Part shown: piece by piece, positions 569 to 26,506 of the stretch
Layout of the letters: each line of letters opens with the position of its first letter
How positions within the stretch are numbered: position 1 is the stretch's first letter
Source: Methylovulum sp.
Lineage (GTDB): Bacteria; Pseudomonadota; Gammaproteobacteria; Methylococcales; Methylomonadaceae
Length of the DNA: 42,795 bases
NCBI GenBank assembly: GCA_030653435.1
Contig: JAURZI010000144.1
Coordinates: 1 to 42,795 of the forward strand
Direction of reading: 5' to 3'
Translations under genes and position numbers: made by a program
The notes under the pieces: model-generated
Databases searched by the model: none
The model's input: only the letters and a program-made list of their open reading frames with translations
What the model was told of the DNA's origin: nothing

Positions 569-3199
569 ATGCAATTTCGCGAAAAAATAAAATCTTGGCA
601 TGGCGAAGCATTGCTCAACACACTCTGGGTTTTAAAGGTGGTATGCAAGCCATTGGGGCTTTATATTTTCTATAGGTCGATAGTCATTTATTTAATCAAG
701 CGTAGCGGGCTTTTTGATAGAGCCTACTATCTTGATGCTAATAATGATGTTGCGATATCGGGAAAGCTGCCATTGCGCCACTATGTTTCCTATGGGGATA
801 AAGAAGGTCGCCAACCTATGCCGCTGTTTGATCCTGGACACTACCGCGCGCAGGCGCGCAGCAGGGCAGCCAAGGTTAATGCATTGCTCCATTATGCTTA
901 CATCGGGCGCTATCGAAAAATATCCCCTAGCTCATGGTTTGATGTCGATTATTATCTAAGGAACAATAAGGATATTGCCAGAACACATATAGATCCTTTG
1001 CTGCATTACATCAAATGGGGTGGTTTGGAAGGACGTTCGCCTTGCCAGCAATTTGACGGCTCCTATTATCTGCGTACATACCCCGATGTTATCGAGATGC
1101 ACGCCAACCCTTTGATCCATTACTTGTTTGTTGGTCGGCTGGAAGGGCGGAGCACACTGCCGGAACATGGCAACAATGGCTTGGTGGGAGTAGGCGGCAA
1201 TGAACCGCTGCAAAGCTTGCCGCCTGACGACGGTGCTTGGCTTTTACTTCAGCCACGTGCACACATCGCGCAAGCGGATACTGACATTATCGTGCCGGTA
1301 TACAAAGGGCGTTTTGAAACCTTGCGTTGCCTATACAGTGTTTTGGCTGCCAGCTATCAAATATCGTTTGAACTCATCGTCATAAATGATGCCAGCCCTG
1401 ACGAAGAACTGACTGTTGAGTTACAGCGCCTGGCCGACCATAATCTGTTTACATTGTTGTCAAATTCCGAAAACCGAGGCTTTGTGCATACCGTCAACAG
1501 GGGTATACAGCTGCATAAACAGCGGCATGTAGTGTTGCTCAATTCGGACACCGAAGTCTATGACGGCTGGTTGGACAGGCTCAGCCATGCCGCGCATCGT
1601 AACGTGCTGACAGGGACGGTGACGCCGCTATCTAATAACGCAACGATATGCAGTTATCCACAGTTCCTGCATGATAATCCGTATCCGTTGGAGCTTAGCT
1701 ATGCTGACCTGGACAGCATAACCGCCAGCGTCAATGCCCATGTCGAAGTGGAAGCGCCTACCGGAGTAGGTTTTTGTATGTACATTAAACGGCCTTGCCT
1801 GCAAGCGGTCGGTTTATTTGATGCAAAAGCATTCGGCAAGGGGTATGGGGAGGAGAATGATTTTTGCCAAAAAGCCATTCAAAAAGGCTGGCGTAATATT
1901 ATTGCCGCCGACGTTTTTGTGCGCCACTTGGGGGCGGCCTCTTTCCAGGGGGAGAAAGCCAAGCGTGTCCAGGCCGCACTCAAGGTGATAGACAAACGCT
2001 ATCCGCGTTACAGTAAAGAGATTGATGACTTCATAGAGCGCGACCCTTTAAGGGAAGCCCGTTGCCATTTAGACTCGGCAAGAATGCAGCGCATGCGTAG
2101 GGGAAAAAATGTGCTTATCGTCTGCCACAACCGGGGCGGCGGTTCGGAGCGCCGTATGCAAGAAGACATCGTCGAGCTTACCGGTCAAGGCTATGGTGTT
2201 TTTACGCTACGCCCAATGTCCAGAAAGCCCTCGCATGCTATTTTAGGCCACCCATCTATAAAATCATTTCCTAATATCAATCCATTTGCTCTTGCTGAAC
2301 ACTCAGCCTTAAAATCCGAGCTAGAGGCGCTGCACATTACCGAGGTGCATACGCACAGTCTTGTGGACTTTGAGGCGGAAGCGCCAGATTATCTGGGGGC
2401 GCTCATTAAATCTTTGGGGGCGGAGTGGAAAATTTATCTCCATGACTACAAGGTTATTTGTCCGCGCATCAATTTGGCGGACGAAAACGGCCTGTATTGT
2501 GGTGAGCCTGTTGAAGCGAAATGTAACCAATGTCTGGCTGAGCGGGGCTCCGACTTTGGTGTACTGGATATCTATCAATGGCGCGCGATACATCAGCGGG
2601 CATTGTCGACGGCAAATGAGGTGCAGGTTCCTGATCAGGACGTGGCCGACCGGCTGTCGCGTTATTTTTCAGGCATACATTTTGCGATTTCTCCTCATGA
2701 ACTCATTGATTTAAAAAAGATTAAATTCAAAAGGCCCGCGCTACAACCCGAAGACAGGATGAGAATAGTTGTTATTGGTGCCATTGGCAAACTGAAAGGC
2801 TTTCATGTTATTATTTCCTGTGCCAAACAGGCCCGGCAGAATAACCTTCCCATAGACTTTATTATTATGGGTTACAGCATGAACGACAAGCAAATGGAGG
2901 AAGTCGGCGTTTATGTCACAGGCAAATACCAAGACCATGAAGCACTGGATAAACTAGCTGGTTTATCACCCCATATCGTCTGGTTACCTTCACTGTGGCC
3001 AGAAACTTACAGCTATACCTTTTCATTGGCATTGAAAGCGAACTTGCCGATATTTGCCTTTGATATTGGCGCTATTGCCAGACGCGCCAAAGAATCCGAG
3101 ATGAGCGACCTGTTAATGCCGCTGTCATGGGTCGATACGCCTGCCAAAATAAACCACCAATTTGAAACATTCAGGAAAGATTGCTTGCATTTTCATTAG
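569..3199 (+). CDS. Bifunctional GT2-GT4 glycosyltransferase with N-terminal FD-YY repeats
   Basis: This 876-residue protein has three parts. Residues 48-196 hold four copies of a ~38-residue motif (FD..YYL...DV....PL.HY...G..EGR) known from the front of large surface-glycan glycosyltransferases; copy 2 is diverged. Residues ~237-480 are a GT-A (GT2) domain: TDIIVPVYKG start, VINDASPD, the acidic NSDTE at 325-329 and GYGEENDFC near 425-433. Residues ~512-876 are a GT-B (GT4-like) domain starting KNVLIVCHNRGGGSERR and containing VVIGAIGKLKGFHVI and LWPETYSYTFSLAL. The product most likely adds two sugars to a surface polysaccharide at the inner face of the membrane. The hydrophobic stretch around residues 18-42 may be membrane-associating. 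Acceptors and donors cannot be read from the sequence. It precedes another double glycosyltransferase by 33 nt, so the two are probably cotranscribed. Confidence 0.85.
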   Translation: MQFREKIKSWHGEALLNTLWVLKVVCKPLGLYIFYRSIVIYLIKRSGLFDRAYYLDANNDVAISGKLPLRHYVSYGDKEGRQPMPLFDPGHYRAQARSRAAKVNALLHYAYIGRYRKISPSSWFDVDYYLRNNKDIARTHIDPLLHYIKWGGLEGRSPCQQFDGSYYLRTYPDVIEMHANPLIHYLFVGRLEGRSTLPEHGNNGLVGVGGNEPLQSLPPDDGAWLLLQPRAHIAQADTDIIVPVYKGRFETLRCLYSVLAASYQISFELIVINDASPDEELTVELQRLADHNLFTLLSNSENRGFVHTVNRGIQLHKQRHVVLLNSDTEVYDGWLDRLSHAAHRNVLTGTVTPLSNNATICSYPQFLHDNPYPLELSYADLDSITASVNAHVEVEAPTGVGFCMYIKRPCLQAVGLFDAKAFGKGYGEENDFCQKAIQKGWRNIIAADVFVRHLGAASFQGEKAKRVQAALKVIDKRYPRYSKEIDDFIERDPLREARCHLDSARMQRMRRGKNVLIVCHNRGGGSERRMQEDIVELTGQGYGVFTLRPMSRKPSHAILGHPSIKSFPNINPFALAEHSALKSELEALHITEVHTHSLVDFEAEAPDYLGALIKSLGAEWKIYLHDYKVICPRINLADENGLYCGEPVEAKCNQCLAERGSDFGVLDIYQWRAIHQRALSTANEVQVPDQDVADRLSRYFSGIHFAISPHELIDLKKIKFKRPALQPEDRMRIVVIGAIGKLKGFHVIISCAKQARQNNLPIDFIIMGYSMNDKQMEEVGVYVTGKYQDHEALDKLAGLSPHIVWLPSLWPETYSYTFSLALKANLPIFAFDIGAIARRAKESEMSDLLMPLSWVDTPAKINHQFETFRKDCLHFH

Positions 3200-3232
3200 C
3201 AGTAATATCAAAGAAACATTATAGAGAAAACT

Positions 3233-6200
3233 ATGCAAAATAAATTTTCAGCCGTGCGTAATTTGTCGAAAAACACTTTTCTGGGCAAAAAGAAAAAAAG
3301 CAGTATTGAAGGCTATATTGAACGTATTGATGATGCTGAAATTCATGGTTGGGTCATTAGTCGTGAACAGGAACCTTTACAGCTATCCTTAAATATTGCC
3401 GGTGTTTCTTACCCAGTCTCGACTTTGTGGCATGAGCGGGCAGACGTTGCTGAGAGTTTCGGTGACGAATTTATGCAGTCTGGCTTCACCATCAAGATAC
3501 CCAAGTCGGCTATTGATGCGTTTCTTCTGGCCTTCCAAAAAGGTAACCCTATCGATGTACTCGCCAATAATATTCCCTTGGTTAACCGGAGCAAACCCTA
3601 CAATCCGGCAACCGGCCTGTTCAAATCGGTCAACACGAAGAAGCTGAAAACCAAAAAAGTCATCGAAGGCAATGTTGAGCAAGTTTATAGCCTCGAAGTA
3701 GGGGGCTGGGTTATAAACCGTGATAAAGAAGACATTGCCCTGGAAATTTCCATTGATGGTGTTGTTTATCCGGTAACGCCGACTTGGCATGAGCGTCCTG
3801 ATGTTGCGGTGAATTTTGGTAATGAGTTTGTAAGATCAGGCTTTACCGTGGCAATACCCAATGAACTTGTCGATAAGTTCTTGCTGGCGTGCCAACATGA
3901 CAATGAAGCGCTCGAGGACGATAGTGACGACGATGTTGCTGCTGCTGATACTAAGGTTGTAAAGAAGAATCCGGTGACTATTGATATTATCGCCAACAAC
4001 ATCCCCTTAAAAAGCAAGATCAGGCAAACCAACGCGACGGTTGATTTTTTGCCGACAAATTTTAAATTTGCAACTATCGCCGAGATCAACGCTAAGCTTG
4101 GCATTTACATCACGTCAAAGGACTTTCACAATGTGCTGACAGGACAGATTGCTTATCCGCTGCGGATCAGCCAGGATAATTCAATCAATGCCAATTTCTA
4201 TCTCGAACTCGCCAAACAAAAGCTGATCAGCCACAATATCTGGAATGCGAGGACCTTGCTGAAAATTTGTCTGGCTTTTGAGAAGCGCGCGGAATTTCTT
4301 GAGTTGTTAGGCAACACCTACTTCGAGCAACGGGACTACGAAAGCGCGGCAGCACATTATGAAGCAGCCATCGCGAACAAGGGTGGTATCAGCAAATGGT
4401 TGTTTTCTAACCTGGAGCACTGCAAGAGCCAATCGCAAAACCCAAGAGCTATGGTGGAAACCCTTATTAATGGGATAGAGAGGAACCCCGAATCCAATTT
4501 TTTATATGACAGGCTGGATAATCTTGTCCAGGATTATTGGCTAAAGCAGCAAGGTATACTGGAAGCGCTATCCATAGTCAACAATCGGGACGCTTTGATT
4601 GCCAAAATGGTTGAGGTCTCGGGATTTATCTACAATACCTATCTACGTAGCTTTGGCGCGGCAGAACACCCGCAATGGCTGGGCAGCTGTAACTTGAAGC
4701 GGATCCTGATAGTCGGTGACATGCATATCCCGCAATGTGTCCGTTACCGGATAGATCAGAAAGTAGAACAGCTGGAACTGGCGGACAAAGAAGTCACGAC
4801 CATATCCTGGACCGATCTTGCCAACGAGCAAAATACATTGGTGTTTCATGATGTGGTTATTTTTTATCGCGTACCGGCAGAACCGCAAGTGCTTAAGGCA
4901 ATGGCCCAGGTAAATGCGACAGGCAAGCTCTCGCTATACGAAATCGATGATTTATTGTTTGAGGCGAGTTATCCGCCACCGTTGGAGACGTATGGCGGCT
5001 ATCTGGAATTGAACCACTATATCCAGATTCTGAAAGGCATGGCATCGTTTAACGCAGCGACGCGTTACTGCCGGTTCGGCATCGCCTCGACCCAGCCTCT
5101 GGCTGACAAATTGCAAGCGCTGGTTTTTGGTCAGCGCTGTTTTGTGCACCGCAACGGTATTGATTCGTCGAATATATTTAAACAGAAACCATCAGGGCAG
5201 ACTAACAAAACGACCATTGATATATTCTATGGTAGCGGTACGATGGCCCATAACAGTGATTTTAATGACTTGGCTTTGCCTGCAATCATGCGTATTTTGG
5301 ACGGCTATGCGAACGCTGGTTTAATGATCGCAGGTTATCTGAAGTTGCCGGCTGAATTTTTGAAGCGCTATGAAGGCCGCGTCAAGCAAATGCCGCCGGT
5401 TAAAAACATTAAGACCTATTGGACCCTGTTGGAACGTGCCGACATTAATCTTGCCGTGTTGCACGATGACGAGATTAACGGCTGCAAAAGCGAGCTGAAA
5501 TGGTTTGAAGCGGCCTGTTTGGGTATTCCTTCAGTCATGAGCAGCACTGCCAATTACCGCGATGTCATCCATCAAGGAGAAGATGGGCTAATGGCGGTGA
5601 CAACGGAAGACTGGTATCAACACCTGAAGGCATTGGTGGATAACCCTGAACTACGCAGGGAAATGGCGGAACATGCCTCGGCTAGAGTACAAATGGAATA
5701 CAGTGTTGAAGCCTTGTCGCGTAATATCTGTGACACACTGGAGTTAGCCCTGAGTTGTGCCCAAGTTGCTGAATACAAAAACCGTAAGAAAATAGCCTTG
5801 GTCAATGTTTATTTTCCGCCCCAATCAATAGGCGGGGCGACGCGGGTGGTATCCGACAATTTTGATGTGTTGCAACAAAATTATCGGGACCAGTTTGAGC
5901 TGTGCGTTTTTACCTCGGATGCCGAGCACAAGCAACCACATCTGATGACCGTATACAACCATGGCGGCGCGAGGGTATACCGATCCACTATCGTATGGCG
6001 CGAGCACATGGACTGGCATGCTTCCGATGACGGCATGAAGGAATTATTCAGCGACTTTTTGCTTGCCGAACAACCGGATCTTATCCACTTCCATTGTGTA
6101 CAAAGGCTGGGCGGCTCGGTGTTGGAAGCGGCGCTCGAAGCCGAGGTGCCTTATATTGTGACCACGCACGACGCTTGGTGGATTTCCGATTACCAGTTTC

Positions 6201-6988
6201 TGGTCGATGCCGATAACAAGGTTTACCCGGAAGCCCACCCTGATCCTTATGAACCCTATACGCCGCCAAGCTTTACCAGCCTCAGCGATTCTATTGAACG
6301 CATCCTTTATCTTAAAGATTTATTGCACAGCGCTTGTGCAGTGTTGACTGTATCCGAGTCGTTTGCCGATATTTACCGTAAAAACGAGATTCCGCAAATC
6401 AGGGTCAATAAAAACGGTATATCTGAAAGCATAGCCTGGCAAGCCAAGGATACTGTTTATACCGATAAAGTGGTCTGTGGTCATGTCGGGGGCATGGCGG
6501 AACATAAAGGCTATTTTCTGTTAAAAAAGGCTATTACTAAGCTGCAACCGAAAAACATTGAAATGTTGATTGTCGATCATTCCCATGAAGAAGGTTATCG
6601 CCAGGAAAGCCATTGGGGCAAAGTGCCGGTGACCTTTATAGGTCGGCTTAGCCAAACGCGCGTAGTCGAACTTTATCGGCAAATTGATGTGCTGTTTGCG
6701 CCGTCTACATGGCCGGAAAGCTACGGTTTGGTCACTCGCGAGGCGGCCGCATGCGGCTGTTGGGTGGTTGCCAGCACGATGGGCGGTATTGGCGAAGATG
6801 TCATTGAAGGCGAATCCGGTTTTGTTATAGAGCCAACACTAGATGCTCTTACCAGTTGCCTGATAAAAATCGATAAAACCCCTGCCGTATTTAAGGGTCA
6901 GGCCCATACGCCGACATTAAGACGAGTAGCCGAACAAGTAAAAGAATTAGCAGACATTTATCAACACAGGACAGCAAAAAATGACTAA
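3233..6988 (+). CDS. Double GT-B glycosyltransferase with two GW modules and TPR-like linker
   Basis: This 1251-residue protein starts with two related ~85-residue modules (residues ~26-116 and ~145-260). Each carries I.GW(V)I.R, a predicted beta-rich stretch, WHER.DVA..FG.EF..SGF and a closing I..NNIPL; the second has an acidic insert around 226-240. Residues ~320-440 look like TPR helices (NTYFEQRDYESAAAHYEAAI). The remainder is two GT-B domains. The first (~488-855) begins KRILIVGDMHIPQCVRYR and contains ELKWFEAACLGIPSVMS. The second (~866-1251) begins KKIALVNVYFPPQSIGGATR and contains the donor-site signature PSTWPESYGLVTREAAACG. A family-typical role is building a surface or extracellular glycan, probably adding two different sugars. 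It overlaps the next gene by 8 nt, which indicates an operon. The GW modules are probably carbohydrate- or protein-binding, but this is inferred. Confidence 0.85.
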   Translation: MQNKFSAVRNLSKNTFLGKKKKSSIEGYIERIDDAEIHGWVISREQEPLQLSLNIAGVSYPVSTLWHERADVAESFGDEFMQSGFTIKIPKSAIDAFLLAFQKGNPIDVLANNIPLVNRSKPYNPATGLFKSVNTKKLKTKKVIEGNVEQVYSLEVGGWVINRDKEDIALEISIDGVVYPVTPTWHERPDVAVNFGNEFVRSGFTVAIPNELVDKFLLACQHDNEALEDDSDDDVAAADTKVVKKNPVTIDIIANNIPLKSKIRQTNATVDFLPTNFKFATIAEINAKLGIYITSKDFHNVLTGQIAYPLRISQDNSINANFYLELAKQKLISHNIWNARTLLKICLAFEKRAEFLELLGNTYFEQRDYESAAAHYEAAIANKGGISKWLFSNLEHCKSQSQNPRAMVETLINGIERNPESNFLYDRLDNLVQDYWLKQQGILEALSIVNNRDALIAKMVEVSGFIYNTYLRSFGAAEHPQWLGSCNLKRILIVGDMHIPQCVRYRIDQKVEQLELADKEVTTISWTDLANEQNTLVFHDVVIFYRVPAEPQVLKAMAQVNATGKLSLYEIDDLLFEASYPPPLETYGGYLELNHYIQILKGMASFNAATRYCRFGIASTQPLADKLQALVFGQRCFVHRNGIDSSNIFKQKPSGQTNKTTIDIFYGSGTMAHNSDFNDLALPAIMRILDGYANAGLMIAGYLKLPAEFLKRYEGRVKQMPPVKNIKTYWTLLERADINLAVLHDDEINGCKSELKWFEAACLGIPSVMSSTANYRDVIHQGEDGLMAVTTEDWYQHLKALVDNPELRREMAEHASARVQMEYSVEALSRNICDTLELALSCAQVAEYKNRKKIALVNVYFPPQSIGGATRVVSDNFDVLQQNYRDQFELCVFTSDAEHKQPHLMTVYNHGGARVYRSTIVWREHMDWHASDDGMKELFSDFLLAEQPDLIHFHCVQRLGGSVLEAALEAEVPYIVTTHDAWWISDYQFLVDADNKVYPEAHPDPYEPYTPPSFTSLSDSIERILYLKDLLHSACAVLTVSESFADIYRKNEIPQIRVNKNGISESIAWQAKDTVYTDKVVCGHVGGMAEHKGYFLLKKAITKLQPKNIEMLIVDHSHEEGYRQESHWGKVPVTFIGRLSQTRVVELYRQIDVLFAPSTWPESYGLVTREAAACGCWVVASTMGGIGEDVIEGESGFVIEPTLDALTSCLIKIDKTPAVFKGQAHTPTLRRVAEQVKELADIYQHRTAKND

Positions 6989-7850
6989 ATTTGTTATGGG
7001 CATAGGTTCACAACGGGCAGGTTCGACCTTGTTATATACCATCTTGGAGCAATGTTCGTCTGTCTATATGAATCCTGTCAAAGAACTGCATTACTTCGAT
7101 ACGCTTTTCGGTGTGCGGAATCCTGCTGTATTGCATAAATTTTCGGTGAACCAGTTAAATAAAGACATAGAAAAAATTGTCAAGGCCAAGGATTTGGCGT
7201 TCCTTGACAGGCGCTATAAAAATTCCTTACGCACTAATTTCCTGCTGTCCACAAAAAAAGTCCAGCATATTGAGTATGCTGATTTGTTTAGGCCGTGTGT
7301 GCACAGTAATAAACTATTGGGTGAAATAACGCCTGAATACATGATCCTTCCTCAAGAGGGCATCCAGAAAATGCGTGAGACGGTAGGTGATGATGCGAAA
7401 ATTATTTTGCTCGCAAGAAACCCGGTAAAGCGTTTTGTTTCTGCGTTCAAGCTATTAATGCATGGCATGCCTGATTCTGATAAATCGCTATTTGAAGAGG
7501 AAATGCTGAAAATATTAAAACAACCCAACAGCCAGTGGTTAAAGGTTCAGGATGCTTTTAACGACTATGAATCAGCCCTTAACAATTACCGGCGCGAGTT
7601 CAAGCATGTGTTAATGCTTAGTTTTGATGAGCTGCATGGCTCCGTCGATGAGACTGCCAAGGAGTTGTCTGATTTTCTGGAACTAAAATTATCGCTGCCC
7701 AATTACAAAAAAATTGTTGGGACAAAAATTAATGCACTTGATGAGACCAGGGATTTGTCAGAAGGGACGCACTCGCTACTTCAGGCGAGATATTCAGAAA
7801 ACCAAGCCTATCTGGATAAAGTCTTTGGCAACGGCTCCTGCATCGCCTGA
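6981..7850 (+). CDS. PAPS-dependent sulfotransferase
   Basis: A 289-residue sulfotransferase. The 5'-phosphosulfate-binding loop GSQRAGSTLLYTIL lies at residues 9-22, and the 3'-phosphate motif LLARNPVKRFVSAFK (R, P and S positions intact) lies near residue 140. Between them, KELHYFD is typical of the family and positions the substrate. The family transfers sulfate from 3'-phosphoadenylyl sulfate to a hydroxyl or amine, here presumably on a sugar. The start codon overlaps the end of the upstream glycosyltransferase gene by 8 nt, so translation is probably coupled and the enzyme likely modifies that glycosyltransferase's product. No signal peptide is visible, so it would act in the cytoplasm. 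Confidence 0.88.
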   Translation: MTKFVMGIGSQRAGSTLLYTILEQCSSVYMNPVKELHYFDTLFGVRNPAVLHKFSVNQLNKDIEKIVKAKDLAFLDRRYKNSLRTNFLLSTKKVQHIEYADLFRPCVHSNKLLGEITPEYMILPQEGIQKMRETVGDDAKIILLARNPVKRFVSAFKLLMHGMPDSDKSLFEEEMLKILKQPNSQWLKVQDAFNDYESALNNYRREFKHVLMLSFDELHGSVDETAKELSDFLELKLSLPNYKKIVGTKINALDETRDLSEGTHSLLQARYSENQAYLDKVFGNGSCIA

Positions 7851-7864: not shown

Positions 7865-8689
7865 ATGATCGAAAAATTGCTTATTGGTGCCGGGGCTATG
7901 AAAGCGGGTACCACTTGGTTGTATAAACAGCTAGAAACGCATCCCAAGATTCATTTTACGCCAGAAAAGGAAATTCATTATTTTTCATACAATAAAGGCT
8001 GGGGCAATAAACTTGACCCTAAAGACAGGGCCAGAAAACTTAACAGGGTAATTAAGCGGCAAAGTAAACCCCGGATCGTGGATTGGTATAGGAACTATGC
8101 ACAGCCGGAAACTATTGATGACCAATGGTATTGCTCCTTGTTTAAGGGTGTTCCCCCTGATGTGTATTGTGCAGACTTCTCAAATCAATATTCATTGATT
8201 GAAGAAGATTCTCTACGCCACATACAAAAAATAGCTAAAGAAGTTAAAGTGATATATACGCTACGAGATCCTTTGGAAAGATTATGGTCACATGTCAAAT
8301 TCCAATACAAGTATATTGACCAAGAGGATCTTGTCGATAGCCTTACTGTAAAGGAGTTTCGAAAGCTTATCTCTAAACCATGGTTTTGGAAAAATGTAGA
8401 TTATGTCTCGAATTACGATAGATTAGTGAGTGCTTTCGGGGAAAATAATGTAAAGCTGTTTTATCTTGAAGATTTTATTGCATTTCCTCAAGGCTCTCTC
8501 TGGAGCCTAGAAAAATTCCTGGACATTCGGCACGTTGAATTCAAGCCTGAAACTGCAAGTAATAAGGTCAACAGAACTAAAGAGCTCGTCATGCCAGAGC
8601 AATGGGAAAGAATGGCCAGGCGCAGACTGAAACCTTACTATGAAGAGCTTTACTCCCGCAACTTAAGCCATCCGTCATGGCGGTATTAG
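7865..8689 (+). CDS. PAPS-dependent sulfotransferase
   Basis: A 274-residue sulfotransferase, clearly different in sequence from its upstream neighbour. The phosphosulfate loop GAGAMKAGTTWLYKQL is at residues 8-23, KEIHYFSYNKGWG follows, and the 3'-phosphate motif LRDPLERLWSHVKFQ near residues 133-147 has both the Arg and the Ser. This arrangement resembles deacetylase/N-sulfotransferase-like and heparan-type bacterial Sulfotransfer_1/3 proteins. It lies 14 nt after the previous sulfotransferase, with a strong TATAAGGAA leader in front of the ATG. Two adjacent distinct sulfotransferases suggest sulfation of two different positions of one glycan. The substrate cannot be read from sequence. Confidence 0.88.
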   Translation: MIEKLLIGAGAMKAGTTWLYKQLETHPKIHFTPEKEIHYFSYNKGWGNKLDPKDRARKLNRVIKRQSKPRIVDWYRNYAQPETIDDQWYCSLFKGVPPDVYCADFSNQYSLIEEDSLRHIQKIAKEVKVIYTLRDPLERLWSHVKFQYKYIDQEDLVDSLTVKEFRKLISKPWFWKNVDYVSNYDRLVSAFGENNVKLFYLEDFIAFPQGSLWSLEKFLDIRHVEFKPETASNKVNRTKELVMPEQWERMARRRLKPYYEELYSRNLSHPSWRY

Positions 8690-14679: not shown

Positions 14680-15227
14680 TAAATTTTTAATTTATACCGG
14701 TATAGCTGCACAAGTTTTTGGTTGGTATTCAAATTTAATCGTTAGATTCGCCTAATGTGTAGTAATTGATTGAATGGCTTTAGTTTACAGCTGGTTTTGC
14801 AGGGTAGGGGCAGGCAATGGTCTGTTGCTACCCGAAGCTGGATTTTTCTGAACACAAGTGGTTAAAAATGTGCGTGACCTGTAACAGGCATGTCATTTGG
14901 GGCAGTATTTGTTGAAATATTTGCAGGTACCATTACTTAGGGCTAACCAGGGAAAGTGCTTGAAGACAGCGTAATATTACGCCCCATCGCACTGAAAACC
15001 TACCGATTTAAACTGCCGGAACGCCTTGCATGTAAAGGCGTTCAGCCACATAGAAGCATACTGCCTTTCACTCAGGAGGGTGCGGTGCATGGTAACGGCG
15101 GCATTGTCCATAAAGCGTCAAATAACTACTTTTGTTAAAAGCGGGTTATATAGCGTCGCGTATCCCCTGTACATTTCACTCAAGGTTAATCTGTGAATAT
15201 CCCATTATCGCCCAACAGGAATCACGC
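14680..15227. other. Gene-poor gap
   Basis: No supported gene on either strand. A 60-codon plus-strand frame from 14956 to 15138 has only a TTG start and no recognisable features, so I leave it out. A hairpin is present at 15019-15043. The rest looks like decayed sequence bordering the mobile-element scar. Confidence 0.5.
15019..15043. repeat. Inverted repeat / hairpin
   Basis: GAACGCCTT (15019-15027) and AAGGCGTTC (15035-15043) are perfect 9-nt arms around a 7-nt loop. There is no T-run, so no terminator is claimed. Confidence 0.5.
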
Positions 15228-16829: not shown

Positions 16830-16948
16830 AGCAGGGTTGAAGTTAAGCTGCAATTATCGGGTTACGGTTAGGTTTGCCTGGGTGGTGCACTGCGTTATTA
16901 TTTAAGCTAATGGACCCTATGACTGACATTAAATGCGAGGTGCAAAGC

Positions 16949-17686
16949 ATGCCCCAGCCCAAAGTGACGGCTGTTGTCCCTTGCCGCAAGGGCAGCCAAC
17001 GCATTCTTAACAAGAATACCCGGCCTTTCGGCGGTTATACCCATGGGCTGCTGGAACTCAAATTGAAGCAACTGGATGCCGTTGCACGAATAGACGAAAT
17101 TGTTGTAACAACAAATGACCCAATAGTCATGGCAATAGTGGAGCATATTCGCCCAACATTGAGCAAATCTGTCATTCTCGACCATAGACCCGATGAATAT
17201 GCCAGCGATGATTCTTTGCAAGGGCTGATCGGTTACCTCGGCAATACGGTCGATACCGACGTTATCGCATGGACGCACGTCACGTCGCCACTTTTTGTGC
17301 CGGCACTGTATGATGCCGCCTTGGCGGCATATGCACAGGCCAAGCAAGCGCAATTAGCTGACAGTCTAATGGCTGTCGATGCTACGCAAACCTTTGCAAT
17401 GCGTTCTGGCGTATGGATTAGCCACGACAGTAGCATCAAACGGTGGCCGCGCACCCAGGATCTGGAAAAAATATTTCTCGTCAACAGCGCCCTGTTTGTC
17501 ATCGACAAGCCCTTAATGGTAACGCTTCAAGATCGCGTAGGCCATCAGCCCTTTTTGTTCGAGACACCCGCCCTCCATGGATTCGATATTGACTGGGAAG
17601 AGGATTTCGTACTTGGTGAAGCCTTGTACGAAACGCTGGTCAGTCGCAGATTGGGTAAGGTCAACCAAACCATCGCAGGCGTATAG
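16949..17686 (+). CDS. Acylneuraminate/CMP-sugar-type cytidylyltransferase
   Basis: A 245-residue nucleotidyltransferase of the CMP-NeuAc/CMP-Kdo synthetase family. The signature VVPCRKGSQRILNKNTRPFG near the N-terminus is the variant CTP-binding loop (P.R.GS..I..KN), VVTTNDP follows, and HVTSPLF and HGFDIDWEEDF are the later conserved blocks. These enzymes transfer CMP to the anomeric hydroxyl of 2-keto sugar acids. The ATG at 16949 is preferred because GAGG stands 8 nt upstream; two upstream in-frame ATGs (16910, 16919) are less well placed. It follows the HMGL-type aldolase gene and probably activates that enzyme's product for a glycosyltransferase. Confidence 0.8.
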   Translation: MPQPKVTAVVPCRKGSQRILNKNTRPFGGYTHGLLELKLKQLDAVARIDEIVVTTNDPIVMAIVEHIRPTLSKSVILDHRPDEYASDDSLQGLIGYLGNTVDTDVIAWTHVTSPLFVPALYDAALAAYAQAKQAQLADSLMAVDATQTFAMRSGVWISHDSSIKRWPRTQDLEKIFLVNSALFVIDKPLMVTLQDRVGHQPFLFETPALHGFDIDWEEDFVLGEALYETLVSRRLGKVNQTIAGV

Positions 17687-17752
17687 CCATGGGATGTGTG
17701 CCGTTGCCCGTGTTTTGCGTAATATAGAAAACCGCATTTTGGATTTGTTAAC

Positions 17753-20506
17753 ATGATTGAACTTGAAATCACTAGCCACAGCGAAACAGATAACCCGATC
17801 ATTAATACAAGATTGCTGTATTCGTTCAAAGCAACAAAATGCCGCATGAACACTGCTCCGCCCCACTTTATATTGTCCGGCTGGATTATAGATAAAAAAC
17901 AAGCACCTATTAACATAGTCACGGTCATTGCTGGCATTAAGGTGTGTCATGATTTAAATGTCATAAAACACGTGCTTGCCAAACGCATGGGCAAAAAACT
18001 GGGTTTTTCAATCGATGGTCGTTGCGGCTTTGCCTTCCGAATCGAGGCAGTTGCAGATGTTGACTTATTCATTGAAATAGATAACAACTTGGTGCCCTGG
18101 AAAAAAGTAAAAGTCATAACAACATCGGCACCCTCAATACCTGAGAAGGATACAGCAGCCATCTTGCAAAAATTTAAAGAGGCTAATTTTTCCGCCGTGC
18201 AAGAAGAAGACTATTGCAAGAAAAGTACATTCGCTCAATATCGACCAAATGACACTTTTGCCATTGCAATTGAGGCATTATTCTTTTTTTTTAGTAACCG
18301 GTTTAATGAAATCTCCAGCCAACACATTGATGAGGTCAACGCGCTTTATGGCGCAATAGCACAAAATATCAGTACGTTTTGGCGTGAAGTAAAAAGACTG
18401 TCCTTAGCAGATGCTTTAAATGAGCCGACGCTTAAAAGCCATTTAAAGCGATTGGTCGAAGAATTAAAAAATGATAAGTTCGCTATTGGTTTGGCCGAAA
18501 GCGCCATCACTAATAATTTAAGCTTACCCAGCCCTTTTTCTTCGGCACCAGCCTATTGCCGCGAAAGTTATGAGGTTGATGGCGGCTTTACCTGTTTACG
18601 TTTTACTGACGGTCGGCACTGTTTTTTTCTCATCCAGGGTGTCTCGTCGGCAGACGCCCTTTATTTCCCTAGCGATAATACTTTTTTAGCCTTTGCCGCC
18701 GTCAAAGAAACCCAGATACAAAGCTTGAAAAAAAAGCTGATTAGCGACTTTGCCAAGACTGTTGATTATGTTAAAGCGGAAAATAGTTTTTTTGGTATCA
18801 TCGCTTCTCATAACCGCCCGTCCCATTTTTATTATGATATTTGGCCTACGCTCGTAGAATTAAGTGAAAGACCTGCGTTGGTCGCCCAGTTGCCTAACGT
18901 GATTATGCGTTCCAATCACGATTTTAATCATGCCGATTTGTTATTTGGCGAGCACAAATGCCTTGTCCTTGATTCGGGAGCCATAAATGCACTGGCCTTG
19001 GACGAACATAAATGGTTTTTTCATGCCGGTACCCGTCTTGCGCTCAGTAACCGGTATCTTTATGAGCGGGCAGACCGTGCACTGGTCAAAAACGCTATCA
19101 GTACCCCAGGTAAAACGGCATTAGAAAAAATTAAGCACTTGGACGGGTGTTACCCTATCGTATGGATTGGCGTAGAAGGGCAAAAACGTTGCTGGCTAGA
19201 ACAAATTGAAGGTTATGCTTATATTTTAAATCAATTATTGAAAAAATATCCAAAGCTCGGCGTAGTTTTTGATGGTTGGACGCTCCCGTTAACCCCATCC
19301 GAGGGATCTATAAGCGAGGCAGAAAAGGACCTGCAAGTCGCTAACAAAATAGTCAAGAAAGTAAGCCCTAGGTTTAAATTTGTTTCCGTAGTCGGCGAAC
19401 CCAGCCATATCAAATTGGCTGTTGGCAACACGGCCGATTTTTTTATCAGTAATTATGCTACGGGTTCTATGCATATTTCACGGATGTTAGGTAAACCAGG
19501 ATTTTGTCATTTAAGCAGACGGTTTTCCGATGTTGCTTTGCGCCAGGCGATGCACATCCATCCTAATCATCATGTTTACCTATTGCCGCAGCAATACATC
19601 ACCGATGAAGATGAAGAGGTTATGCACGATCGGTTAAGCTATTCGATAGATAAAAAAGTTTTTTATCGCTTTATTGAATCGAAACTGGACAATGTGCTGA
19701 ATGCAGACGCGGCAACTAGCATAAAGATTTTTATAGAGCCCCCGTATACTGTTAATCCAGAACTGCGGAATTATTTAAAAATGGCGACTAACGGGAACCT
19801 CATCCAAATTTTTCCGGGTAAAAAGGCCCCGAATAAGCTTGAAGAGTTAACGGGGTATAGCGAAACGTATCTTAATAATAATTTGGTTTACGATGCTTTC
19901 AGTTATCGTGCCCATAAGAAAATTATTGGCTCGGCGCATTATTTGATCTGGTTAGGAAACCCATTGGAACGCGTTTATTTTCATGCGGCGAAATTGGCAA
20001 AAATAACGGCTAGTGACAAGGACGATGGAGGGCGTATGCTCGATGTTTTCAACATAGGACATAAGTCACTCGACAATTATCTGACGCGCATGGTCTCTGA
20101 TACCGACGCGGCATTTGGCCAATGCACAGAGCTTATGCTTGAAAAAGCCATTGATAATTTAAAGCATGAATTCATTTTTATCGGTCTTGATGACAGGCAA
20201 AGCGAATCTTTTGATTTGTTATGTGCCGTCATGGATTGGGACAGAAGCCTTTTTCCTAACGAAATGCCGCATAAGTTTACAATCAATCATGATGGTTTCG
20301 CTGAAAATGTCCATAGCGCGGCAAAGGCGATGGTGAGTTACGATTTACGCTTATACCAGACTGCAGTTGCGCTGTTTGATGATCGATTGAAAAGTCCTGA
20401 AAAGTTGATGGGTTACATGCAATCCTATAACTTTTATAGCAAATTACAAAACATGCTGGCTGATAAACTGATGCCGAAATCAACAATACCCAATGCTGAC
20501 AGATGA
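17753..20506 (+). CDS. Large surface-glycan protein with GW module and degenerate sulfotransferase domain
   Basis: A 917-residue protein. Residues ~36-120 form a module related to the two in the 1251-residue glycosyltransferase: ILSGWIID, VIAGIKV, then GRCGFAFRI. The middle (~250-670) is not recognised with confidence; FVSVVGEPSHIKLAVGNTAD followed by SNYATGSMHISRMLGKPGFC looks like a GT-B-type (GT61/GT9-like) donor half. Residues ~680-890 follow the Sulfotransfer_2 plan: LIQIFPGKKAPNK, WLGNPLERVYFHAAKLA, then TRMVSDTDAAFGQCTE, FIFIGLDDRQSESFDLL. But the loop lacks the family's (S/T) and the 3'-phosphate motif has Gly735 and Phe in place of the usual Arg and Ser. I infer a non-catalytic or altered domain. 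Its last codons overlap the next gene by 4 nt (ATGA), indicating translational coupling. Confidence 0.65.
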   Translation: MIELEITSHSETDNPIINTRLLYSFKATKCRMNTAPPHFILSGWIIDKKQAPINIVTVIAGIKVCHDLNVIKHVLAKRMGKKLGFSIDGRCGFAFRIEAVADVDLFIEIDNNLVPWKKVKVITTSAPSIPEKDTAAILQKFKEANFSAVQEEDYCKKSTFAQYRPNDTFAIAIEALFFFFSNRFNEISSQHIDEVNALYGAIAQNISTFWREVKRLSLADALNEPTLKSHLKRLVEELKNDKFAIGLAESAITNNLSLPSPFSSAPAYCRESYEVDGGFTCLRFTDGRHCFFLIQGVSSADALYFPSDNTFLAFAAVKETQIQSLKKKLISDFAKTVDYVKAENSFFGIIASHNRPSHFYYDIWPTLVELSERPALVAQLPNVIMRSNHDFNHADLLFGEHKCLVLDSGAINALALDEHKWFFHAGTRLALSNRYLYERADRALVKNAISTPGKTALEKIKHLDGCYPIVWIGVEGQKRCWLEQIEGYAYILNQLLKKYPKLGVVFDGWTLPLTPSEGSISEAEKDLQVANKIVKKVSPRFKFVSVVGEPSHIKLAVGNTADFFISNYATGSMHISRMLGKPGFCHLSRRFSDVALRQAMHIHPNHHVYLLPQQYITDEDEEVMHDRLSYSIDKKVFYRFIESKLDNVLNADAATSIKIFIEPPYTVNPELRNYLKMATNGNLIQIFPGKKAPNKLEELTGYSETYLNNNLVYDAFSYRAHKKIIGSAHYLIWLGNPLERVYFHAAKLAKITASDKDDGGRMLDVFNIGHKSLDNYLTRMVSDTDAAFGQCTELMLEKAIDNLKHEFIFIGLDDRQSESFDLLCAVMDWDRSLFPNEMPHKFTINHDGFAENVHSAAKAMVSYDLRLYQTAVALFDDRLKSPEKLMGYMQSYNFYSKLQNMLADKLMPKSTIPNADR

Positions 20507-21294
20507 ATAAAATTCCAGAAATATTCAATAACGTTGTTGTCGACCTAAAAAGGCTTCAAGAGATAGACGCGATGCCGGAACCTCGGATCCGATACATTGT
20601 TGCGATAACGCCGCGATCAGGAAGCTCTTATCTTTGTAACACGATGATTGGGGCTAAACTGTTTGGCCGACCTGGAGAGGCGTTGAATCAGTCATTTGTT
20701 GGTGGAAATTTGAAAAGAATTCCGGGGCGCACGCCGGACGAATATATTCGTAATGCCATTCGTGTCAGAAAAACGGCTAACAAAATTTCCGGTCTTAAAA
20801 CCAGCTGGTTTCAGTTTCAAAATTTCATGGAAGCCATGCATGACCATGCTTATTTGGACGGTTTTAAATACATTTATTTAACTAGGCGCGATCTGGCTGC
20901 ACAGGCGGTATCCTTGTATAAAGCCACTTCATCAAATGTATTTCATACCAATATACAACACAGCGAAGATGCTTTGGCAAAACTAGACGCACTAGAATAC
21001 GATTATGAGGCTATAAAAGGTTGGCACGATCATATCGTGGCCCAGGAAAAAGGCTGGCAAGACTACTTTTATAACAAGCGTATTTTTCCGTTATGTATTA
21101 GTTACGAAGATATAGAAGAGGATATAGTCCGCGTACTAAAACGCATTGCCACCTATATTGCCGTAAATCCTGATAACGTATCAATACCTGAGGAACCCTC
21201 AGTGTTCACGAAAGTAAGCGATAGCCGAAATGCCGAATGGTCGCGCCGCTTCATGATGGACTACAGTTCAAGTAAGGAGCTTGAGAATAAATAA
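20503..21294 (+). CDS. Stf0-family sulfotransferase
   Basis: A 263-residue protein matching the Stf0 (trehalose 2-sulfotransferase) family. It has the phosphosulfate loop ITPRSGSSYLCNTM (residues 35-48), a GRPGEALN segment where Stf0 carries its conserved Glu, LTRRDLAAQAVSLYKA as the 3'-phosphate motif with RRD...QAVS, EKGWQDYF, and a C-terminal SDSRNAEWSRRF. Stf0 sulfates trehalose in mycobacteria; here the acceptor is more likely a glycan or disaccharide of this locus, and that is inference. The ATG overlaps the stop of the previous gene (ATGA), so the enzyme is probably made in step with the 917-residue protein that carries the degenerate sulfotransferase domain. Confidence 0.88.
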   Translation: MNKIPEIFNNVVVDLKRLQEIDAMPEPRIRYIVAITPRSGSSYLCNTMIGAKLFGRPGEALNQSFVGGNLKRIPGRTPDEYIRNAIRVRKTANKISGLKTSWFQFQNFMEAMHDHAYLDGFKYIYLTRRDLAAQAVSLYKATSSNVFHTNIQHSEDALAKLDALEYDYEAIKGWHDHIVAQEKGWQDYFYNKRIFPLCISYEDIEEDIVRVLKRIATYIAVNPDNVSIPEEPSVFTKVSDSRNAEWSRRFMMDYSSSKELENK

Positions 21295-21346
21295 ATGGTA
21301 TCATCGCTAACAAGCTGTTTAACAACGGCGACTGAGAGCAAAGCCG

Positions 21347-22357
21347 ATGAATAGCCTAAACATAAATCATCAAGCGTATACCGGCCTTTCCGTCTATGTT
21401 GTCGAAGAACAAGCCAATCCTTCCAGCGATTTTTTTGTGTTGCCGGCGATCCGGGCGCTAGGCCACCGTGCGGTACGCTGCCATTTCGCAGATTTGCCGA
21501 CGGCGGCTGAATTGTCCGGGGCTATCGTGGTATTTGTCCGCTATGTGCCGCCCCAGTGGGTCAAACTGGTGGAGTCCATGCGGACCCAACTGCATGCGTT
21601 GATATTTTTCATGGATGACGATGTATTGGATTTGGATGCGTCTTCCGATATGCCCTGGCATTATCAGCTTAAGCTGATGCGCTTGTCGGCTTCGCGTTCA
21701 CGGTGGTTGCGGCGGCAAAAAGCGGTGCTATGGGTTTCGACACCGTATTTGCAGCAGAAATACGCGGCGTGGCAACCGCGCTTGATTTTGCCGTCAGCTG
21801 TGATGCCGTCCGACAGTCTGCGACGGATTTTTTACCACGGCTCAGCTTCTCATCAAGTCGATATTCGCTGGCTACAACCCGTAATAGCAGAAGTCCTGTA
21901 CCAAGATGCCAGTCTTGCATTTGAAATTATTGGCGGACAAGCAATTTATAGCCTGTATAAAGGTCTGCCGCGTGTCAGTATCGTGCATCCTATGAGGTGG
22001 CCAAACTATCAGGCTTTCGTTGCCATGCAAACTTACCATGTGGGGTTGAATCCCTTACAGGATATACCGTTTAACCGTGCACGTTCCTACACCAAATTTT
22101 TTGATATCACCCGTTGCAAGGCGGTGGGTATTTATTCACCAGGCAGCGCCTGTGCTGAAATAATCTGCGACCAGCATGATGGCCTAGTTGTTGAACTGGA
22201 GCGGGAAGCCTGGATAGCCGCTATTTTGAAGCTTGCCCAGGATGAACAGTTGCGGCAAACCTTATTGGCAAATGCCGAAACTAAAATGCGTGATTTGACT
22301 AAGTTGGCCCAGCATAGCTATGCCGATCAGGGTGGCGCTAAAAATGCGCTTTATTAG
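21347..22357 (+). CDS. GT-B glycosyltransferase (GT4-like)
   Basis: A 336-residue glycosyltransferase. LSVYVVEEQAN and FFMDDDVLDL lie in the N-terminal half, RRIFYHGSASHQVDI starts the donor-binding half, and YHVGLNPLQDIPFNRARSYTKFFD with GSACAEIICDQHDGLVVE gives the C-terminal nucleotide-sugar-binding block. It resembles the first GT-B domain of the 1251-residue protein (both have a YYR/K..FE-type acidic site), so the two may be related by descent. No signal peptide. Its sugar specificity is not deducible. It closes the glycan block; the next gene, mpl, is a housekeeping gene. Confidence 0.75.
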   Translation: MNSLNINHQAYTGLSVYVVEEQANPSSDFFVLPAIRALGHRAVRCHFADLPTAAELSGAIVVFVRYVPPQWVKLVESMRTQLHALIFFMDDDVLDLDASSDMPWHYQLKLMRLSASRSRWLRRQKAVLWVSTPYLQQKYAAWQPRLILPSAVMPSDSLRRIFYHGSASHQVDIRWLQPVIAEVLYQDASLAFEIIGGQAIYSLYKGLPRVSIVHPMRWPNYQAFVAMQTYHVGLNPLQDIPFNRARSYTKFFDITRCKAVGIYSPGSACAEIICDQHDGLVVELEREAWIAAILKLAQDEQLRQTLLANAETKMRDLTKLAQHSYADQGGAKNALY

Positions 22358-23795: not shown

Positions 23796-23923
23796 GCGCC
23801 GGACGCTGAAAGTTGATAGATAACTGGCATTAACCGCCCCTACAAATTAGAATAGCAAGCAGATTGTGTGCTGATATACAGGCCGACACATACTGTACCA
23901 CCCCAAACCTTATGGATTTTTTA

Positions 23924-24832: not shown

Positions 24833-24877
24833 ACGTCGCCCCCCACCGCCAATCAAACAGAACTCAGAGAATCCACT

Positions 24878-26506
24878 ATGTCCCACCAATCCGATTTAAT
24901 CAGTACCGATATTAATGCTTATTTGGCGCAGCATGAGCGCAAAGAGTTGTTACGTTTTTTAACATGCGGCAATGTTGATGACGGCAAAAGCACGTTGATA
25001 GGCCGTTTGTTGCACGATTCCAAGATGATTTACGAAGACCAGTTGGCGGCGGTTCAAGCCGACAGTGTCAAGTCGGGCACCACCGGTGCCGGCAAGATAG
25101 ACTTGGCGTTACTGGTTGACGGTTTGCAGGCCGAACGCGAACAAGGCATTACCATAGATGTTGCCTATCGCTATTTTTCCACCGCCACACGAAAATTTAT
25201 TATCGCCGACACACCAGGGCATGAACAATATACGCGTAATATGGCGACTGGCGCATCGACCTGCGATTTGGCGATTATTTTGATTGATGCCCGTTATGGC
25301 GTACAAACCCAAACCAAACGTCATAGTTTCATTGCCTCGTTGCTGGGTATCCAACATATCATCGTCGCAATCAACAAAATGGATTTGGTTGAGTACAGTG
25401 AGATTGTTTTTAATAAAATCAAACAGGATTATTTAAAATTTACTGAAACGCTGGATCTGCATGATATTTGTTTTATTCCAATGTCGGCGCTAGATGGCGA
25501 TAACGTGGTCAACCCAAGTGAGCACATGGCATGGTTTACCGGTGCGCCCATGATGGAGGCGCTCAATAGCGTTAAGATTGTCAATGACCGTAATTTCACT
25601 AATGCCCGTTTTCCGGTTCAGTATGTGAATCGCCCTAACCTGGATTTTCGTGGCTTTTGCGGCACAGTGGCTTCCGGCATTTTCCGTAAAGGTGACCAGA
25701 TCACAGCGTTGCCTTCAGGTAAAAGCAGCAAGATCAAATCTATTGTCACTTATGACGGAGACCTCGAAGAAGCTTTTGCGCCTATGGCTGTGACGTTGAC
25801 CTTGGAAGATGAAATCGATATCAGCCGTGGCGATATGATTGTCGGTGTTGAGCAAACACCGGCAACCGTAGCGGACAAGTTCAAAGCAAATATTGTCTGG
25901 ATGACTGAAAAAGCCTTGACGCCTGGGCGCCAGTATATAATCAAATTGGCTACCCGTAGCGTTTCTGGGTCTATCTCATTGATACATCATAGAATTGATG
26001 TCAACACGCTGGAGCATCATGATGCCAGCGAGTTGCAGCTTAATGAGATCGGTTGCTGTACGGTTTCGGTTAATGCGCCTGTTGTTTTTGACCCTTACAA
26101 GACGAGTCGGGGCACGGGGTCGTTCATTATTATTGATCGGCTCAGTAACGGTACGGTTGGTGCCGGGATGATCACTGGTGTCACCGATGACGAGTTGCTG
26201 TTGTCCGTGACTGTTGATGAGCGTGCGTCAAGATTTAGTCAGATGGCCACTGCTGTTTCACTAACCGGCGCAAACAGCCGAATTACTGCATATCAATTGG
26301 AAAGAAAACTATTTGATAACGGCCATGCGACAACCGTGTTGGAAGCCAAAGATGATGTGGCGCTTATTCAGGCTATCAAGAATGCTGGGTTGATTTGTTT
26401 GTGCCCGGACAGTAGCGTCGAGTCCTCCGATATCAGCTTTGACACCGACAACAGCTCTATTGATGATATTTATAGCGTATTAAAAGAACAGAAAATTATT
26501 TATTAA
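24878..26506 (+). CDS. cysN: Sulfate adenylyltransferase subunit 1 with decayed APS-kinase tail
   Basis: A 542-residue GTPase subunit of ATP sulfurylase. [17 protein letters not shown] is the P-loop (near residue 28), [11 protein letters not shown] is G3 and NKMDL is G4; the translation-factor-like beta barrels follow. CysN uses GTP hydrolysis to drive APS synthesis by CysD. E. coli CysN is about 475 residues; here residues ~460-542 form an extra tail. The tail matches the beginning of the CysC (APS kinase) half of CysNC fusions ([19 protein letters not shown] and NAGLICLC), but the P-loop position reads [11 protein letters not shown], without G..G.GKST, and most of the kinase is missing. So it looks like a degraded former CysNC fusion, and this protein cannot make PAPS. 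The ATP sulfurylase part is intact. Confidence 0.9.

Follow-up and report, generated by a model that had tools for sequence, protein, structure and literature searches.

A putative sulfated-capsule locus with several types of sulfotransferase in the methanotroph Methylovulum sp.

Results

The window is the whole 42,795-nucleotide stretch of Methylovulum sp. DNA that was analyzed. The locus within it comprises the following features (coordinates, strand, description).

3..140, +: C-terminal 45 codons of an SLBB polysaccharide-export protein; the contig begins inside the gene
569..3199, +: GT2 glycosyltransferase (GT2-GT4), predicted capsule core; Glyco_tranf_2_3 1.1e-12, sub-cut-off GT1-type match in the C-terminal half
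3233..6988, +: glycosyltransferase with two GT1/GT4-type regions (GT4-GT4), predicted capsule core; Glycos_transf_1 1.3e-28
6981..7850, +: sulfotransferase ST3a, predicted capsule core; Sulfotransfer_1/3 (2.3e-10 / 5.8e-9), loop SQRAGST, R146-x7-S
7865..8689, +: sulfotransferase ST3b, predicted capsule core; Sulfotransfer_3 8.2e-8, loop MKAGTT, R134-x7-S
8827..11466, +: three-part protein (GT2_4, Sulfotransfer_2, sub-cut-off GDSL-like), accessory; Sulfotransfer_2 9.8e-20, loop TPKAACST, R448-x7-S
11635..13005, +: sulfotransferase, by alignment and profile, with a C-terminal HU-like domain (about residues 375-450), ST-HU; Bac_DNA_binding 0.0025, below cut-off
13119..13484, -: IS66 transposase remnant, outside the pathway; DDE_Tnp_IS66 5.8e-9, profile positions 226-281 of 284
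13962..14330, +: conserved 122-aa protein of unknown function; 58-70% identity in five relatives
14401..14679, +: small HU-like protein; Bac_DNA_binding 2.6e-4, just below cut-off
15225..16829, +: HMGL-type (DRE-TIM) aldolase with a C-terminal MptE-like domain; HMGL 3e-25, PDB 3dxi putative aldolase 1.9e-58
16874..17686, +: CMP-ulosonate synthetase-like cytidylyltransferase; CTP_transf_3 3.1e-7, PseF 3.4e-10 (below cut-off), PDB PpNeuA 5.3e-6
17753..20506, +: conserved 917-aa protein of unknown function; neither sulfotransferase nor GT61 identity supported
20503..21294, +: Stf0-type sulfotransferase, accessory; Stf0 1.3e-25, PDB 1tex Stf0 2.9e-7
21347..22357, +: weak glycosyltransferase-like protein; Glyco_trans_1_4 0.0053, below cut-off

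RNA families and tRNAs gave no match in the window, and no rhamnose-type (rml) genes were seen in it; in the same-genus genome G108 such genes occur close to the locus.

The original prediction listed five sulfotransferase modules with intact PAPS motifs, and open reading frames and motifs agree on all five, Pfam family matches on four; each of the five carries both the 5'-loop and R-x7-S. The five modules are predicted PAPS-dependent sulfotransferases, and the Stf0 and Sulfotransfer_2 Pfam matches confirm that several subfamilies are represented. Relatives of ST3a share 67-73% identity in G108, G078, G082 and G072, and those of ST3b 63-68% in G078, G082 and G072; loop and R-x7-S were found in 10/10 ST3a-type and 4/4 ST3b proteins checked. 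Two 254-aa sulfotransferases, of G032 and G028, were missed by the scripted loop pattern, yet score above the Pfam Sulfotransfer_3 cut-off. The Stf0 protein had no counterpart by protein comparison within the fetched stretches of relatives. Sulfotransferases as such are not a rarity in the family, with Sulfotransfer_3 matches in 81 of 121 genomes, 80 of them above cut-off.

ST-HU gave no Pfam sulfotransferase match in the profile scan. Its eight-member alignment retains H-x-G-x-x-K-T-G and R-x7-S, and its profile retrieves the solved sulfotransferase 3rnl (2.7e-5) and matches that of ST3a (hhalign probability 90%, E 1.5e-6); the value of only 0.54% against Sulfotransfer_2 comes from a thin, two-sequence profile and an insensitive comparison. 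The HU domain is also fused to a sulfotransferase in G108 and G072. The 122-aa gene adjoins an HU-like gene in each of five relatives. Of the six pairs, four are followed immediately downstream by a sulfotransferase gene (G078, G082, G108 and G072, that of G072 recognized through a sub-cut-off match), and all six have one no more than about 4 kb away. An HU-like domain is found both fused to and neighboring sulfotransferases, one of the two more novel side findings.

A degenerate sixth sulfotransferase copy had also been proposed in the 917-aa protein, and neither motif nor profile supports it: no PAPS loop was found in the C-terminal part, and hhalign probabilities against the ST2, ST3a and ST-HU profiles reach at most 1.84%, in comparisons whose sensitivity is limited by small alignments and a thin ST2 profile. 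A GT61 identity for this protein likewise found no support. As for glycosyltransferases, at least five domains had been counted; the GT2, the two GT1/GT4-type and the GT2_4 domains hold, while five is reached only with the sub-cut-off matches in 569-3199 (GT1) and 21347-22357.

The predicted polysaccharide-export protein end was verified: bases 3-140 code for the 45 C-terminal residues of an SLBB exporter, with 95% identity over 41 residues to a 593-aa protein of G072 that has SLBB and Poly_export domains, and 80% over 40 aa to a protein of G032 that lies ahead of the same glycosyltransferase gene. A search of this genome for the rest of the exporter gave no match (query from G072, E <= 1e-20, run without a positive control). 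The export gene set is whole in G072, where a KpsM-type permease (144 bits), an ABC ATPase, a BexC/CtrB/KpsE family protein (271 bits) and the SLBB/Poly_export protein precede the core, the KpsM and KpsE matches being below their equivalog or subfamily cut-offs; this contig has the SLBB end only.

Comparison across genomes, proposed originally as a check for Methylococcales and made here within the genus, indicated that exporter, glycosyltransferase and sulfotransferase genes are conserved together. GT2-GT4 has relatives at 63-73% identity in seven same-genus genomes and GT4-GT4 has matches in 8/8. SLBB, GT2-GT4 and GT4-GT4 are collinear in G032, G108, G028 and G072, and both glycosyltransferase genes also occur in G078, G082 and G123. 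A sulfotransferase gene directly follows GT4-GT4 in all seven genomes with an intact flank (G000, G108, G078, G082, G072, G032 and G028); G123 was left out of this count, as its contig ends inside the GT4-GT4 gene. Glycosyltransferase and sulfotransferase genes adjoin exporter genes in G072, G028, G108 and G032, and in the window they adjoin the SLBB end. Outside the genus, a locus of Cobetia crustatorum (L192), compared in place of that of C. marina, has the order ABC permease, ATPase, sub-cut-off Wzz match, GT4-GT4 and ST3a, with 53% (GT4-GT4) and 43% (ST3a) identity to the window.

The cysDN genes, originally counted as members of the locus, did not hold up in that role. They lie together with mpl in six of seven same-genus relatives (G028, G032, G108, G072, G082 and G123; the fetched stretch of G078 contains cysDN only), and the window glycosyltransferase and sulfotransferase proteins had no match in these mpl-cysDN stretches at 1e-4. 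Because mpl and cysDN stay together in stretches without such matches, we do not consider cysDN a pathway gene of the locus. A survey of mpl in 41 genomes yielded 30 fetched loci, two of them in this genus, and the 28 from other genera of the family all lacked cysD within about 1.5 kb. The genome holds one CysD, and the suggested search for an APS kinase located CysC on another contig.

The original prediction also described a 2-keto-sugar-like activation pair. The pair is present and can be refined to an HMGL-type aldolase with an MptE-like tail and a PseF/NeuA-like CMP-transferase. The MptE-like match was detected in 8 of 45 aldolase family members (best 1.2e-6), the window aldolase itself giving none at 0.01, and T-L-R-D-G-G and H-x-H-x-N are conserved in the family. 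As a 4-hydroxy-2-oxovalerate aldolase it scores well below the TIGR03217 cut-off (98.6 bits against 286). The CMP-transferase is 76% identical to a copy on contig C62 of the same genome, where the paralogous set includes a HAD gene; neither HAD nor NeuB/KdsA-type matches were found among the window genes scanned. In 77 distant loci, a CMP-transferase lies within three genes of the aldolase in 60 and a HAD phosphatase in 48, and the 80 aldolase loci include SAR11, Prochlorococcus, Halomonas, Pseudomonas, Shewanella and Bacillus records. Recurrence of this pair in many bacteria, often with a HAD phosphatase, is the other of the two more novel side findings.

Discussion

Based on the data presented above, we propose, with a probability of about 0.78, that the locus encodes the biosynthesis of a sulfated capsule exported by an ABC transporter (group 2/3-like), with a core to which accessory genes have been added. 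The synteny of glycosyltransferase, sulfotransferase and exporter genes extends through the genus and to Cobetia, and therefore ST3a and ST3b probably sulfate an ABC-exported capsule, as reported for Cobetia marina and a Vibrio. This methanotroph probably wears a sulfated sugar polymer like those of some marine bacteria. From the domains, motifs and synteny observed we infer the capsule identity, the sulfation and the residues modified. A KpsM/ATPase/KpsE/SLBB system would export the polymer that GT2-GT4 and GT4-GT4 assemble, and ST3a and ST3b would move sulfate, in the cytoplasm, from PAPS to hydroxyls of the polymer or its precursor. PAPS would be supplied by CysDN, an incidental neighbor of the locus, and by CysC encoded elsewhere. 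In this strain the core appears to be extended by the Sulfotransfer_2 fusion, ST-HU, Stf0, the aldolase and CMP-transferase, and further glycosyltransferase genes, which may decorate either this surface glycan or another one. The earlier view of a sulfation-rich surface-glycan locus thus stands as regards exporter, glycosyltransferase and sulfotransferase synteny across the genus, but cysDN is excluded, and the Sulfotransfer_2 fusion lies apart in relatives.

How far the capsule pathway extends along the contig is a matter of competing readings. Two loci may have merged, one being the core for a sulfated capsule (569-8689, possibly reaching 13005) and the other a separate decoration island (roughly 13962-22357) centered on a CMP-2-keto-sugar that the aldolase would make, and we place this at somewhat below an even chance. 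The core ends after ST3b in the fetched stretches of G082 and G072, an IS66 remnant lies at the junction, in a stretch of about 1 kb behind ST-HU that holds nothing else, and the aldolase occurs beside a CMP-transferase in unrelated bacteria, with homologues of the window sulfotransferases, the only ones searched for, in just 1 of 80 such loci (tblastn, 1e-6). In contrast, G032 and C. crustatorum keep core glycosyltransferase, sulfotransferase, aldolase and CMP-transferase in one locus. A rather more doubtful reading, which overlaps the capsule model and differs in scope, is that all five sulfotransferases modify different positions of a single polymer. It is consistent with the co-location of the genes along 22 kb of a single strand, with overlaps between GT4-GT4 and ST3a (6981/6988) and, by 4 bases, between the 917-aa and Stf0 genes (20503/20506), with the presence of ST3a and ST3b in the core, and with the largely collinear locus of G032, which also holds the aldolase and 917-aa genes. 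ST-HU-type genes also follow ST3 genes in four of the five genomes holding one (G000, G108, G078 and G032), but the gene stands alone in G072, among genes read as housekeeping. Moreover, relatives of the Sulfotransfer_2 fusion occur in G082, G072, G123 and G032 (in G032 as the sulfotransferase and C-terminal part only), and in 4/4 they lie on a different contig from GT4-GT4, in draft genomes in which the G123 GT4-GT4 contig measures only 4.9 kb. The end of the core after ST3b and the IS66 gap also argue against a single polymer.

In mycobacteria, trehalose is sulfated by members of the Stf0 family, and a lipid or protein substrate of ST3a is conceivable in principle, but we judge it very improbable that these sulfotransferases act in sulfolipid or protein sulfation and not on a polysaccharide, given that seven genomes have a sulfotransferase gene directly after a glycosyltransferase gene of polysaccharide type, with SLBB upstream where the contig reaches; the window Stf0 scores 71 bits against a cut-off of 400 in the NCBIfam trehalose 2-sulfotransferase model.

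Returning to the capsule model, members of a methanotroph genus are predicted to make a sulfated capsule, which can be tested, and such a capsule might influence biofilm, metal binding and encounters with phages or grazers. Natural comparisons are available within the genus, where two ST3 genes or other sulfotransferases stand behind the same glycosyltransferases, and likely capsule genes can now be told apart from the incidental cysDN neighbor. Among the matches listed, open-access PMC titles and abstract starts held no description of sulfated capsules in methanotrophs or of the aldolase/CMP-transferase set. More tentatively, the aldolase and CMP-transferase may represent an undescribed, widespread route to a CMP-2-keto-sugar acid, with an HMGL-type aldolase, fused to an MptE-like domain, taking the place of the NeuB/KdsA-type synthase; here this sugar and sulfate esters might be on the same capsule, with an HU-like domain recruited to sulfotransferases both by fusion and as a small neighbor. 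If a new ulosonic acid is indeed made, the aldolase/CMP-transferase/HAD set would matter to surface-glycan chemistry well beyond methanotrophs.

In the Neu, Leg, Pse and Kdo CMP-ulosonate pathways, a CMP-transferase, often with a HAD phosphatase, lies beside a C-C bond-forming enzyme. The CMP-transferase (16874-17686) likewise adjoins such an enzyme (15225-16829), but here it is an HMGL-type aldolase. The latter shares its barrel with the putative aldolase 3dxi and 4-hydroxy-2-oxovalerate aldolase, whereas the window family has an extra MptE-like domain and adjoins CMP-transferases.

Among known capsules, that of Cobetia marina KMM 1449 is sulfated and kps-exported, with a structure solved by NMR (PMC11766843), whereas the present capsule is predicted from genes. 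In that cluster a kps-type ABC exporter, glycosyltransferases and sulfotransferases lie together, as here, with the exporter read from G072; the C. marina cluster also holds PAPS genes (cysD, cysN/C, cysQ) and a wcb operon, while here there is no dedicated PAPS-synthesis set, cysDN being a fixed chromosomal neighbor by mpl and cysC lying on another contig. Vibrio sp. KMM 8419 has a sulfated capsule cluster (PMC11641403), and this ABC-transported capsule with sulfotransferases is likewise similar. Unlike group 2/3 (kps) loci, this contig holds only the SLBB end of an exporter, but its relative G072 resembles them in having KpsM-, KpsE- and SLBB-type genes ahead of the glycosyltransferases.

Sulfotransferase genes of the window

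The own genome assembly comprises 4.66 Mb in 161 contigs, of which the window is one complete contig (C143, 42,795 bp), and the host is regarded as a methanotroph because the open reading frames at 39053-42015 presumably encode pmoCAB, as read from their translations. All of the open reading frames claimed in the original prediction are present, and the PAPS-binding loop and R-x7-S element were found in each of the five sulfotransferase modules (5/5) for which intact motifs had been proposed.

Sulfotransferase modules and their Pfam assignments
6981-7850, ST3a: Sulfotransfer_1/3
7865-8689, ST3b: Sulfotransfer_1/3
8827-11466, Sulfotransfer_2 fusion: Sulfotransfer_2 flanked by GT2_4 and a sub-cut-off GDSL match
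11635-13005, ST-HU: no sulfotransferase match in the Pfam scan
20503-21294, Stf0 sulfotransferase: Stf0

In an alignment of eight ST-HU proteins, H6, G8, K11-T12-G13, R123 and S131 are invariant. The ST-HU profile matched the solved sulfotransferase 3rnl (2.7e-5) and reached 90% probability against the ST3a profile in hhalign, compared to less than 1% for each of three controls (the C-terminal part of the 917-aa family, its middle part, and GT61 proteins). Against the Sulfotransfer_2 profile, built from two sequences only, ST-HU reached 0.54%.

A degenerate sixth copy, proposed within the 917-aa protein (17753-20506), was not substantiated: no PAPS loop is visible in the 7-member family alignment, Pfam gave no sulfotransferase match, and hhalign probabilities against three sulfotransferase profiles, the Sulfotransfer_2 profile being thin, did not exceed 1.84%. 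Because ST-HU likewise fails against this thin profile, the sequences still allow a very remote kinship of the 917-aa protein with sulfotransferases. The family, which is present as two tandem copies in the same-genus relative G028 (L039 8393-13115), has no recognizable domain; a response-regulator receiver domain was matched by one of seven members, that of G108 (locus L042), judged by its N-terminus.

A conserved, probable capsule core

The predicted grouping of exporter, glycosyltransferase and sulfotransferase genes is upheld by their collinearity in same-genus genomes. GT4-GT4 (3233-6988) was matched in 8/8 of these; the order SLBB exporter end (bases 3-140), GT2-GT4 (569-3199), GT4-GT4 recurs in G032, G108, G028 and G072, and the GT2-GT4 and GT4-GT4 pair also occurs in G078, G082 and G123. 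The next gene downstream of GT4-GT4 encodes a sulfotransferase in all seven genomes with an intact flank, a count that leaves out G123, whose contig stops within the GT4-GT4 gene. Besides the window, this position is occupied by ST3a relatives (67-73%) in G108, G078, G082 and G072, and G032 and G028 have there a Sulfotransfer_3 protein of 254 aa; ST3b is next in line in the own genome, G078, G082 and G072. The loop and R-x7-S are carried by 10/10 ST3a-type proteins, including one paralogue and one Cobetia protein, and by 4/4 ST3b proteins. An automated loop pattern detected nothing in the two 254-aa proteins, although that of G028 shows E-H-S-G-T-T where the loop is expected. The paralogue, on own contig C7 (L049 7686-8558), lies apart from the locus and is 44% identical to ST3a.

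Ahead of the core in G072 are genes for an ABC-2 permease, which scores 144 bits with the KpsM model (cut-off 300), for an ABC ATPase, for a member of the BexC/CtrB/KpsE family, at 271 bits against a cut-off of 437.5, and for an SLBB/Poly_export protein. In G108, GT2-GT4 is preceded at a distance of ~3.5 kb by genes of the dTDP-rhamnose type. The window begins within the SLBB exporter gene (1-140), and contig C9 of G032 ends at about that place too; repeated SLBB genes, of which G108 has two ends, may cause these assembly breaks. In G032, the GT4-GT4 region is doubled inside a single 2738-codon open frame (L036 13972-19998, L102).

Accessory sulfotransferases and the HU-like pair

Sulfation of several positions of one polymer by the five enzymes, as originally suggested, is possible but not established. 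In its favor, genes of the ST-HU type come after the ST3 genes in four genomes (the own genome, where the Sulfotransfer_2 fusion intervenes, G108, G078 and G032). On the other hand, the fusion, present in 5/8 genomes including the own, never lies on the GT4-GT4 contig in G082, G072, G032 (sulfotransferase and C-terminal part only) or G123, although these are draft genomes and the GT4-GT4 contig of G123 is only 4.9 kb; ST-HU is isolated in G072, amid genes read from their N-termini as housekeeping; and in the regions retrieved from G082 and G072 the core stops after ST3b. Beyond the own genome, ST-HU was matched at 1e-8 in six of the 121 genomes, with three weak cases (G028, G172, second copies elsewhere).

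The ST-HU tail is HU-like (a sub-cut-off Pfam match) and akin to the 92-aa protein at 14401 (24%, 2.1e-6); the fusion is retained in G108 and G072, and the tail is missing from the aligned G032 and G078 relatives. The 122-aa/HU pair (13962-14679) occurs in the own genome, G032, G078, G082, G108 and G072, while the HU-like protein search gave no match in G028 or G123. The pair is immediately followed by a gene for a sulfotransferase in 4/6 genomes (G078, G082, G108 and, with a Pfam score below cut-off, G072), but not in G032 or the window. An IS66 transposase remnant (13119-13484) lies in the gap separating the sulfotransferase block from the HU/aldolase block, possibly marking the junction of two islands.

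Sulfate activation

The inclusion of cysDN (23864-26506) in the sulfation locus did not hold up. In the window it follows mpl, an order also found in G028, G032, G108, G072, G082 and G123, and in the first four of these the block runs on into DUF2797 and ATP-synthase genes. The window's glycosyltransferase and sulfotransferase proteins had no match in the fetched mpl-cysDN stretches of relatives, and in G028, G032 and G108 mpl is preceded by a different conserved pair of genes. Thus, cysDN is best read as an incidental neighbor of the sulfation locus. A Roadblock/LC7-domain protein (26680-27042) sits between cysN and DUF2797, with no match at 1e-4 in the same stretches. The suggested check for an APS kinase elsewhere in the genome came out positive, with a strong match on contig C62 (1.3e-66); a second match, on C148, is weak and partial.

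The aldolase and CMP-transferase module

The aldolase (15225-16829) is HMGL-like (3e-25) and falls below the 4-hydroxy-2-oxovalerate-aldolase cut-off. D-C-T-x-R-D-G-G and H-x-H-x-N are invariant among 45 family members, of which eight have an MptE-like match in the C-terminal domain (only 0.13 for the window protein) and five also a weak Radical_SAM match. Relatives at 1e-20 occur in 8/151 genomes of the order, and the set with CMP-transferase (16874-17686) recurs in many bacteria. Among the best 80 of at least 574 loci in a wider scan of genome contigs, the aldolase frame was recovered in 77; a KdsB- or NeuA-like CMP-transferase lies within three genes in 60/77, a HAD phosphatase in 48/77, both in 45/77 and neither in 14/77. 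CMP-transferases make up 61/298 genes at distance 1-2 compared to 15/929 farther genes, and HAD phosphatases 48/441 at distance 1-3 compared to 5/786, counts that are descriptive only because the HMMs were seeded by motif from the same loci.

The own genome has a second, paralogous set of aldolase, HAD and CMP-transferase genes on C62 (L045 10420-13503). The window seems to join an aldolase and a CMP-transferase from different sets, since its CMP-transferase is 76% identical to the C62 copy, whereas the closest aldolase found is that of G032 (85%), which has an HpcH/HpaI-type aldolase and then another kind of CMP-transferase (26%) behind it.

Comparison with known sulfated-capsule loci

Among the papers listed by searches of the open-access literature, there was no methanotroph precedent for such a locus. 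A ~12-kb locus of Cobetia crustatorum (L192) encodes an ABC permease, an ATPase, a sub-cut-off Wzz match, GT4-GT4, ST3a, CMP-transferase, aldolase and HAD, resembling the window in GT4-GT4 (53%) and ST3a (43%). In Cobetia marina KMM 1449, a capsule containing 2-sulfated rhamnose is made by a kps-exported cluster with sulfotransferases (PMC11766843), and Vibrio KMM 8419 provides a second sulfated-capsule case (PMC11641403). The window locus is thus best placed, as a methanotroph example, within a kind of sulfated-capsule locus already known from Cobetia and Vibrio, its two side modules being less familiar.
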